From Methanoplanus sp. FWC-SCC4 (lineage in GTDB: Archaea; Halobacteriota; Methanomicrobia; Methanomicrobiales; Methanomicrobiaceae), in NCBI RefSeq assembly GCF_032878975.1, contig NZ_CP043875.1, positions 1,418,370 through 1,482,369 of the forward strand: DNA of 64,000 nucleotides, given 5' to 3'. A program made the translations under genes and the position numbers. Of the stretch, positions 37,038-39,074 are shown piece by piece (the stretch's first letter is position 1; each line of letters opens with the position of its first letter). A model generated the notes under the pieces. It was not told the origin of the DNA. It did no database searches and was given only the letters and a program-made list of their open reading frames with translations.

Positions 37038-38507
37038 TTATCCCAGAAATTTTCTTTCGCTGGCAGCCTTCAGGATATATGAACCGGCTTCATCAGTTCT
37101 GTTTTCACCAGACAATCTTATAATATCATCTGTTGATTTTTTGTGAACAGTATTTATTTCAAAATCACAGTTCTCTTTGGCAAATTCAAGATCAGCAGGG
37201 GGCAGGTAAGGCGAATCAGGATTCATGTACCTAATTGAATCAATTAGATCTGCATCAAAATTCACATATATATTCCTCAGGTAGTCCAGATCATGATCAT
37301 TTAATGCCGATATTCCAAGTATCTCCGGCGGCACTCCAAGTGAATAACAGGCAGCGGTGAAAGTAATTGCACGCGGAAGGTTTAAACCCTCATGTGATCG
37401 TGAATAACCAAAAAGACCGATATGCAATTTTCTCATCCTTCTTTTTGGGACGAATCCTGATATTTTGTTGATTGCCGGTGATAATTCAGACAGTCTCTTG
37501 TGATACTCTTTTGAACACTTTTCAAAGATCAAAAGACATCTTTTTTCATCAACATCGGGAGCTTTAAAAACTTCCCTGTTCTCAAGTCTTTTTACAGCAT
37601 CGCAGACCATATCAGGAGGATAGTCATACTTAAAGGCAGACTGTATCGTGAATGTCCATACGCCCGGGTATTCTTTCATTACTCTTTCTGTATTATCCGG
37701 ACGAAGATTTCCCCTGAAAGGTGCCGAACCTACACCAAGTATAGGGTATATCGGTATTTCCTTTTTATCAGACAGATTCGAGAGTTTCATCAGGGCAATC
37801 TTGTTCAGGAGAACTGCTCCGACATTTCCATAATTTATCGCAGGATCGGATCTTGCAAGGAAAACCCTTTGGTAGTCAAGGTTTTTATTTTCCAGATATT
37901 TTGCAACAATTCTGTCGGAATTTAACATTCCCTCTTTGTTTTCAAATAATGGAATTATATTGATTTTTGCCGGTTTGAACTCGCCAATCCAGTCAGATAC
38001 TGTTAAATCCCTGCCGCCAAGTCTCTGATTTTGTTTTCCTACAACAAAATCACAGTAATACTGATAGATATTATCAAGTGATTCATAGGAGATTGTCATG
38101 GGGAGGATCACTTCAAATATCGGGGGATTTTCAGTTCCATAAAAAATATTGGCCACATCATAAGACCGTGGAATACTTTCAAGCGTTTCAAGAAGAATTT
38201 TTGCTTCCGCTTTTTCAACATCGGGATTTGGCACTCTTAATGTCAGAAATATGTCCTTTCCAAGCTGATGGTTGGAAAGATAACCGCCATATTTTGACAG
38301 GAGTTTTTTTACAACAAAATTGTCCACTTCTTTTCCTTCACAGTCCCACATCTGTTCTCTGCAGTTTAGATGGGAATAGGCATAGTATGCTTCAAGTACC
38401 TCGTCTTCACCGCCAAGACATGAATTTTCAGAAAAGAAAGGAATCTGAACATTGTCCGGATGCTGGGTGCTCATCGTTTTTGGAATTGTTATTTGTTCAG
38501 GCATCAT
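37038..38507 (-). CDS. ppcA: Archaeal-type phosphoenolpyruvate carboxylase
   Basis: Carboxylates PEP to oxaloacetate for anaplerosis. At 489 residues it is the short archaeal form, unlike the 900-residue bacterial enzyme. Characteristic parts are IPKTMSTQHPDNVQIPFFSE at the N-terminus, EDEVLEAYYAYSHLNCREQM, YGGYLSNHQLG, VFLARSDPAINYGNVGAVLL, YPILGVGSAPFRGNLRPDNT, and the C-terminal GFVPKRRMRKLHIGLFGYSR. It needs no biotin. Two ATGs start the gene (MMPEQ); the leader is about 28 nt. A BirA-like palindrome (38524-38556) overlaps the predicted start site. It is monocistronic. Confidence 0.96.
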   Translation of the reverse strand: MMPEQITIPKTMSTQHPDNVQIPFFSENSCLGGEDEVLEAYYAYSHLNCREQMWDCEGKEVDNFVVKKLLSKYGGYLSNHQLGKDIFLTLRVPNPDVEKAEAKILLETLESIPRSYDVANIFYGTENPPIFEVILPMTISYESLDNIYQYYCDFVVGKQNQRLGGRDLTVSDWIGEFKPAKINIIPLFENKEGMLNSDRIVAKYLENKNLDYQRVFLARSDPAINYGNVGAVLLNKIALMKLSNLSDKKEIPIYPILGVGSAPFRGNLRPDNTERVMKEYPGVWTFTIQSAFKYDYPPDMVCDAVKRLENREVFKAPDVDEKRCLLIFEKCSKEYHKRLSELSPAINKISGFVPKRRMRKLHIGLFGYSRSHEGLNLPRAITFTAACYSLGVPPEILGISALNDHDLDYLRNIYVNFDADLIDSIRYMNPDSPYLPPADLEFAKENCDFEINTVHKKSTDDIIRLSGENRTDEAGSYILKAASERKFLG

Positions 38508-38523
38508 TATTGTCCATATGTTT

Positions 38524-38556
38524 TTGTCAACCCATAATTGGCCAACAGGTTGACAG
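38524..38556. promoter_or_regulatory. BirA-type palindromic operator upstream of ppcA
   Basis: TTGTCAACC (38524-38532) and GGTTGACAG (38548-38556) form arms that match in 8 of 9 positions around a 15-bp spacer. The spacer holds a central TTGGCCAA (38538-38545). The predicted transcription start of ppcA (near 38535) falls inside. The arm sequence and spacing resemble the BirA biotin-repressor operator (TTGT-TAACC-N14/15-GGTTA-ACAA type). Confidence 0.55.
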
Positions 38557-38567: not shown

Positions 38568-38756
38568 AATCCTGATAAAATAAATTTATTCTTTCATATA
38601 CTAATTTTTCAAAAAACAATTAGCTTTACTCAGATATTAATCTAATAAAAAATCGTCATTATATTCCGGTAAAATATCAGTTTAATTCAAAGGAACAAAA
38701 AAAGCTCACACTACAAAATTAAAAACCAAGACTAATTTTACAAAAGTTTGCACTAC

Positions 38757-38785
38757 AATTAAAAAAACTTAACAAAAAAGACTCA
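38757..38785 (-). terminator. Oligo-T terminator of the rRNA operon
   Basis: On the minus strand, just after the 3' end of 5S rRNA, the sequence has GAGTCTTTTTTGTTAAGTTT followed by further T. Such T-runs end archaeal transcripts. The rest of the region up to the ppcA promoter (38568-38756) is AT-rich with no coding potential. Confidence 0.6.
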
Positions 38786-38799
38786 AATCTTCTAGCAGA

Positions 38800-38923
38800 A
38801 CAATTGCAGCGTTGGACGGTTCCCGAGAACTCTCGTATCTCAGTACAACGTCCTACGTAAGTGGGCTTAACTGCCGGGTTCGAAATGAGTCCGGGTGTTG
38901 CCCCACTGCTATGGCCGCAATTG
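38800..38923 (-). rRNA. rrf: 5S ribosomal RNA
   Basis: About 124 nt on the minus strand. The conserved core is present: GGCCATAGCAGTGGGGCAAC, then CCCGGACTCATTTCGAACCC, GGCAGTTAAGCCC, CGTTGTACTGAGATACGAG and GGGAACCGTCCAACG. The terminal helix I forms between CAATTGCGG (5') and CTGCAATTG (3'), which sets the ends to within one or two bases. Last gene of the rRNA operon, after tRNA-Cys. Confidence 0.93.
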
Positions 38924-38988: not shown

Positions 38989-38996
38989 ATTCAGGA

Positions 38997-39068
38997 AGCC
39001 AAGGCCCGGACTTGAACCGGGGTGTAGTCGCTCTGCAGGCGACCGCGTGGCCGCTCCGCCACCTTGGC
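38997..39068 (-). tRNA. tRNA-Cys (GCA)
   Basis: 72 nt on the minus strand. The acceptor is GCCAAGG/CCTTGGC with discriminator U73, the hallmark of tRNA-Cys. The T arm contains GGTTCAAGTCC and the anticodon loop CTGCAGA gives GCA. CCA is not encoded. It lies between 23S and 5S rRNA, an uncommon position; in many euryarchaea tRNA-Cys follows 5S. Confidence 0.95.
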
Positions 39069-39074
39069 CATAAG

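Follow-up and report, generated by a model that had tools for sequence, protein, structure and literature searches.

A predicted BirA-type operator upstream of the phosphoenolpyruvate carboxylase gene ppcA in Methanoplanus sp. FWC-SCC4 and other Methanomicrobiales

In Escherichia coli and Staphylococcus aureus, BirA carrying biotinyl-5'-AMP dimerises and represses transcription, and acts instead as a biotin ligase when the carrier protein is available (PMC6391492). The bacterial BirA/bioO regulon (the bio operon of E. coli; bioY of S. aureus, S. suis and E. faecalis) combines a bifunctional ligase/repressor bearing an N-terminal helix-turn-helix (HTH) with a promoter dyad that has TGTnAACC-type arms and a spacer of 14-15 nucleotides (nt) and that governs biotin uptake; the operator probe of E. 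faecalis bioY, for example, is TGTTAACC-N14-GGTTAACA (PMC4877710). Here we consider a palindrome of the same architecture as that probe, found in Methanoplanus sp. FWC-SCC4 just ahead of ppcA, the gene of a biotin-independent phosphoenolpyruvate (PEP) carboxylase, within a stretch of 64,000 nt (contig NZ_CP043875.1, positions 1,418,370 to 1,482,369) that we call the window. This palindrome is very probably a BirA operator, through which holo-BirA would repress ppcA, as it would repress the biotin uptake gene bioY through a second such site, the two being derepressed when biotin is short. The locus resembles the bacterial regulon in its HTH-bearing BirA and in the arms and spacer of the dyad, with a predicted place at the promoter and a predicted control of biotin uptake; unlike it, the system would also have as a target an enzyme that replaces a biotin enzyme and has itself no part in the synthesis, transport or use of biotin.

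The same logic, in which a vitamin sensor controls a vitamin-independent isozyme, is known from the cobalamin riboswitch on the B12-independent metE (PMC11260477); the likeness is one of analogy and not of homology, with an RNA sensor and B12 in that case and a protein repressor, biotin and a central-carbon enzyme in this one. The two reactions considered here are also those of Corynebacterium glutamicum, where biotin supply decides whether the pyruvate carboxylase or the PEP carboxylase anaplerotic reaction functions, and where the abstract that describes this mentions no BirA operator at ppc (PMC11457263). The open-access literature that we searched contains no report that BirA controls a PEP carboxylase, archaeal ones included. 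Rodionov, Mironov and Gelfand (Genome Res 12:1507, 2002; cited in PMC4877710) are said to have described the BirA signal as common to bacteria and archaea and to have predicted co-regulation of archaeal biotin-dependent carboxylases; PEP carboxylase is not, to our knowledge, named as a member of that archaeal regulon, and priority is uncertain. Operator and regulator are of the known BirA kind, and the novelty lies in the target, an isofunctional enzyme that does not need biotin.

The elements at the start of ppcA are as follows.

37038..38507, minus strand: ppcA, archaeal-type PEP carboxylase, 489 amino acids, biotin-independent (PF14010, TIGR02751)
38524..38556, minus strand: predicted BirA-type operator, core TGTCAACC-N15-GGTTGACA at 38525-38555 (from the letters, the genome search and the relatives)
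38525..38532, no strand: operator arm TGTCAACC in plus-strand reading, proximal to the ppcA start codon
38548..38555, no strand: operator arm GGTTGACA in plus-strand reading, distal to the ppcA start codon
38557..38567, minus strand: candidate B recognition element (BRE)/TATA stretch GAAATATATCC (minus-strand letters), abutting the operator

Read directly, positions 38524-38556 consist of TTGTCAACC (38524-38532), a 15-nt spacer (38533-38547) and GGTTGACAG (38548-38556), and the original prediction, which had described a palindrome with these arms and an N15 spacer, proved right as to the letters; the perfect dyad comprises 8+8 base pairs (bp), its outermost T/G pair being unmatched. The arms fit the operator pattern TGTnAACC / GGTTnACA at all 14 of the 14 fixed positions, and the N15 spacer falls within the 14-16 nt or so typical of such operators. 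On the strand of ppcA the dyad extends from -48 to -18 relative to the ATG, 17 nt from the start codon, and the candidate TATA box, which is plausible, would place the start of transcription inside the operator; a similar GAAATAT adjoins the operator in Methanogenium relatives. The product is a full-length PEPcase_2 protein (PF14010, E 3e-190; TIGR02751, 616 bits against a cut-off of 146).

Searching the genome of 2,312,530 bases with the pattern TGTNAACC-N13..17-GGTTNACA gave exactly two matches, and its reversed control gave none. In the window, the ppcA site was the sole match even with two mismatches allowed, a laxer setting at which 0.21 matches are expected. We scored operators over the 12 inner fixed positions, with a threshold of 11: the observed 12/12 was reached in 0 of 5400 shuffled ppcA upstream regions, and at least 11/12 in 0.09% of them.

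The second genomic site, TGTCAACC-N14-GGTTGACA at genome positions 930036-930065, lies between birA and bioY, a few nt ahead of the likely bioY start codon; with it, the idea of a ppcA site lacking any partner is ruled out. The cluster runs on one strand in the order DUF2111, birA, site, bioY, ATPase, ATPase, bioN-like gene, pycB and pycA, and from bioY to pycA the genes follow head to tail with overlaps or short gaps, both here and in relatives. The first ATPase scores best with those of energy-coupling factor (ECF) transporters; the bioN label is based on position and on similarity among relatives, the protein matching no Pfam or NCBIfam model. The palindrome, which was to be sought before bioY, birA, pycA or pycB, thus recurs ahead of bioY and beside birA; among the surroundings of exact sites inspected in the order none was found before pycB. 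The gap between bioN and pycB is about 80 nt long and contains, in three families, a TATA-like stretch, overlapping the bioN stop codon, which does no more than suggest a separate pycBA promoter.

The genome encodes a single biotin ligase of the BirA family, with the HTH_11 (5-57, E 3e-15), BPL_LplA_LipB and BPL_C domains, and so possesses the BirA with an N-terminal winged helix that had been postulated. It aligns over its full length, from residue 1 to 323, with S. aureus BirA, a known ligase/repressor; its TIGR00122 score of 51.7 is under the cut-off of 70, which makes the HTH a diverged member by that model. The cofactor-dependent counterpart of PpcA is encoded by pycA and pycB, PycB carrying the biotinyl domain. 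Because no other Biotin_lipoyl domain occurs anywhere in the genome, and because the genome search for bioB gave sub-threshold matches only, the cell most likely imports biotin and spends it on pyruvate carboxylase alone.

Across the order Methanomicrobiales, exact TGTNAACC-N14..16-GGTTNACA sites occur in 63 of 232 genomes (79 sites, against 4 for reversed controls). The surroundings of 78 of them were inspected (the remaining one is in genome G181; G, C and L numbers are our handles for genomes, contigs and loci), and 64 sites lie before bioY, 14 before ppcA and none elsewhere. The gene ppcA is itself present in 56 of the 232 genomes. With the threshold of 11/12, the operator precedes ppcA in 13/13 species of the window's own family that have the gene, in 14/15 genes of the family to which Methanoculleus belongs and in 6/6 genes of a Methanoregula-like genus, in line with the prediction that the site would be conserved before ppcA of relatives. 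Outside the order, no site reached a score of 11 in the upstream regions of archaeal and bacterial ppcA genes; that ppcA is generally accompanied by the operator is therefore ruled out, and the link between BirA and ppcA appears so far to be a trait of the Methanomicrobiales.

The operators of ppcA and bioY also change and disappear together. In the Methanoregula-like genus the outermost pair of the ppcA operator has passed from T..A to C..G, giving arms CGTCAACC..GGTTGACG, and the bioY operators of the same family have changed alike, with the exceptions that the bioY copy of G185 retains one older outer base and that G194 differs at one middle base. The operator is absent at all 11 ppcA genes of Methanofollis and in the 7 bioY regions read, at all 9 ppcA genes of Methanospirillum and in the 6 bioY regions read, and before both genes in G079, a Methanoculleus. 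A hidden operator variant in Methanofollis and Methanospirillum was considered and rejected, as no inverted repeat is shared upstream of their bioY genes. The recognition helix of BirA reads, for example, PGSSVARHI in Methanofollis in place of TRSAVWKQI; its conserved TR has become SK, SG or SS in Methanospirillum, and one residue is changed in G079. Among the species in which both regions were read, 29 have both operators, 14 have neither and none has only one.

Comparative support of this kind is unusually strong for a single palindrome, and on the sequence evidence we regard BirA control of ppcA as well supported; a biotin-controlled physiological switch between pyruvate carboxylase and PEP carboxylase is a strong inference. 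A BirA dimer loaded with biotinyl-5'-AMP, the presumed co-repressor, would bind the operator and block transcription of ppcA, and likewise at bioY. When biotin is scarce, or when much PycB is unbiotinylated and consumes biotinyl-AMP, BirA would leave both operators, and derepression would turn on biotin uptake (BioY, the ATPases and BioN) and PEP carboxylase together; the latter would then form oxaloacetate from PEP without biotin while pyruvate carboxylase wants its cofactor. Once biotin is available and PycB carries it, repression of bioY and ppcA by BirA would resume. Since PycB is apparently the only substrate of BirA, which would thus report unfilled pyruvate carboxylase, the chances are about even that ppcA is governed in a closed circuit, in three methanogen families, by how far the enzyme that it stands in for has been biotinylated.

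Several points weigh against this interpretation. The TATA-like counterpart beside the ppcA operator is present in Methanogenium and not in all other relatives, and the AT-rich spacer could itself contain the TATA box in some of them. Two ppcA copies have distant operators, 157 and 278 nt upstream. G056 combines a good ppcA operator with a weak bioY operator (10/12), and the Fisher p of 1.3e-11 without this genome, or 1.3e-10 with it counted as discordant, should not be taken at face value because species share ancestry and their independence is overstated, a safer count being some three independent events of joint loss plus a single shift of the motif at both genes. Finally pycBA, downstream of bioY, may be transcribed from the promoter that BirA would control at bioY, and the notion of a switch would then be less clear-cut. 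In the corresponding variant of our interpretation, whose likelihood overlaps with that of the whole, BirA binds as proposed and pycBA is transcribed mainly from the bioY promoter, so that a biotin shortage would raise uptake, pyruvate carboxylase and PEP carboxylase jointly. The head-to-tail arrangement of bioY through pycA on one strand, here and in relatives, and the lack of a BirA site before pycB make this a serious possibility, though we are inclined to doubt it in view of the bioN-pycB gap and its TATA-like stretch in three families; the coding constraint of bioN may nevertheless explain that stretch.

The direction of control at ppcA, taken to be repression because bacterial BirA represses and because of where the operator lies, could be otherwise: BirA might activate ppcA, or apo-BirA might also repress, with a sign or a biotin threshold unlike those of E. 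coli. S. aureus BirA is able to bind DNA without ligand (PMC6391492). We nevertheless consider such a difference unlikely, given that the operator in the window lies between the candidate TATA box and the start codon, just ahead of the latter, a position that favours repression, although archaeal regulators bound upstream of TATA/BRE can activate. That the TGTCAACC dyad at bioY and ppcA is the site of another transcription factor, with BirA as a bystander, seems more improbable still: a dyad by itself does not identify the protein that binds it, but birA adjoins the bioY site, the arms agree with bacterial BirA operators, and in Methanofollis and Methanospirillum, where neither operator is present, the BirA recognition helix has diverged as well. 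As for a palindrome arisen by chance, as short dyads do, or a hairpin in RNA that has nothing to do with BirA, we give them next to no weight: the genome count, the shuffles and the conservation rule out a chance dyad, bioY is the only other genomic occurrence, the placement before ppcA is the same in three families, the outer base is altered jointly at both genes, and an RNA element is ruled out by Rfam, which gives only 5S rRNA and tRNA nearby.

If BirA does control ppcA in this way, it would account for many Methanomicrobiales keeping two enzymes for oxaloacetate, and biotin would be added to those vitamins for which a sensor governs a substitute enzyme that works without the vitamin. Methanogens that import the biotin of their neighbours, as in digesters and sediments, would then draw oxaloacetate carbon through PEP carboxylase when biotin is scarce and through pyruvate carboxylase when it is plentiful. 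The system would also offer an archaeal protein repressor with a small and complete regulon of two operators, fit for quantitative study.

Some further observations concern the same genes in other genomes. G062 (C5, C26; L107, L106) has two ppcA genes with an exact operator before each, one of them 278 nt upstream, which reflects either a duplication or contamination (4%). In G129 (C8:23827-25278), which is without a bioY operator, the match to ppcA is split into several pieces that adjoin one another, as would be expected of a gene that is frameshifted or broken, or of an assembly error. Tandem BirA-type operators about 40 bp apart precede bioY in several genomes of the Methanoculleus family (L023, L028, L088, L119, L126), and one genus in a different family has a third version of the motif, with TGTTAACC..GGTTAACA arms, as its bioY operator (L005-L008). 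The bioN-pycB gap (L004:5445-5560; likewise L119-L134) holds a conserved stretch, TTTTTATA..., followed in Methanoculleus relatives by GAATTTTTnAGAGGCTTTAT; this stretch partly overlaps the end of bioN and may serve as the promoter of pycBA or in some other form of control. In most Methanomicrobiales inspected, the gene of the DUF2111 protein (L004:9183-9602) lies directly 5' of birA, and this protein may have a part in the metabolism of biotin or in the regulation of that metabolism.

In the window, the next gene upstream of ppcA is the 5S rRNA gene closing an rRNA operon on the same strand, about 290 nt from the ppcA start codon.

38570..38800, no strand: gap between the 5S rRNA gene and ppcA, with minus-strand T-runs
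38801-38922, minus strand: 5S rRNA (Rfam)
38994-39069, minus strand: tRNA-Cys (Rfam)

The T-runs of this gap could terminate rRNA transcription ahead of ppcA; with ppcA directly downstream of the end of the rRNA operon, read-through could supply a basal level of its product that is independent of biotin.
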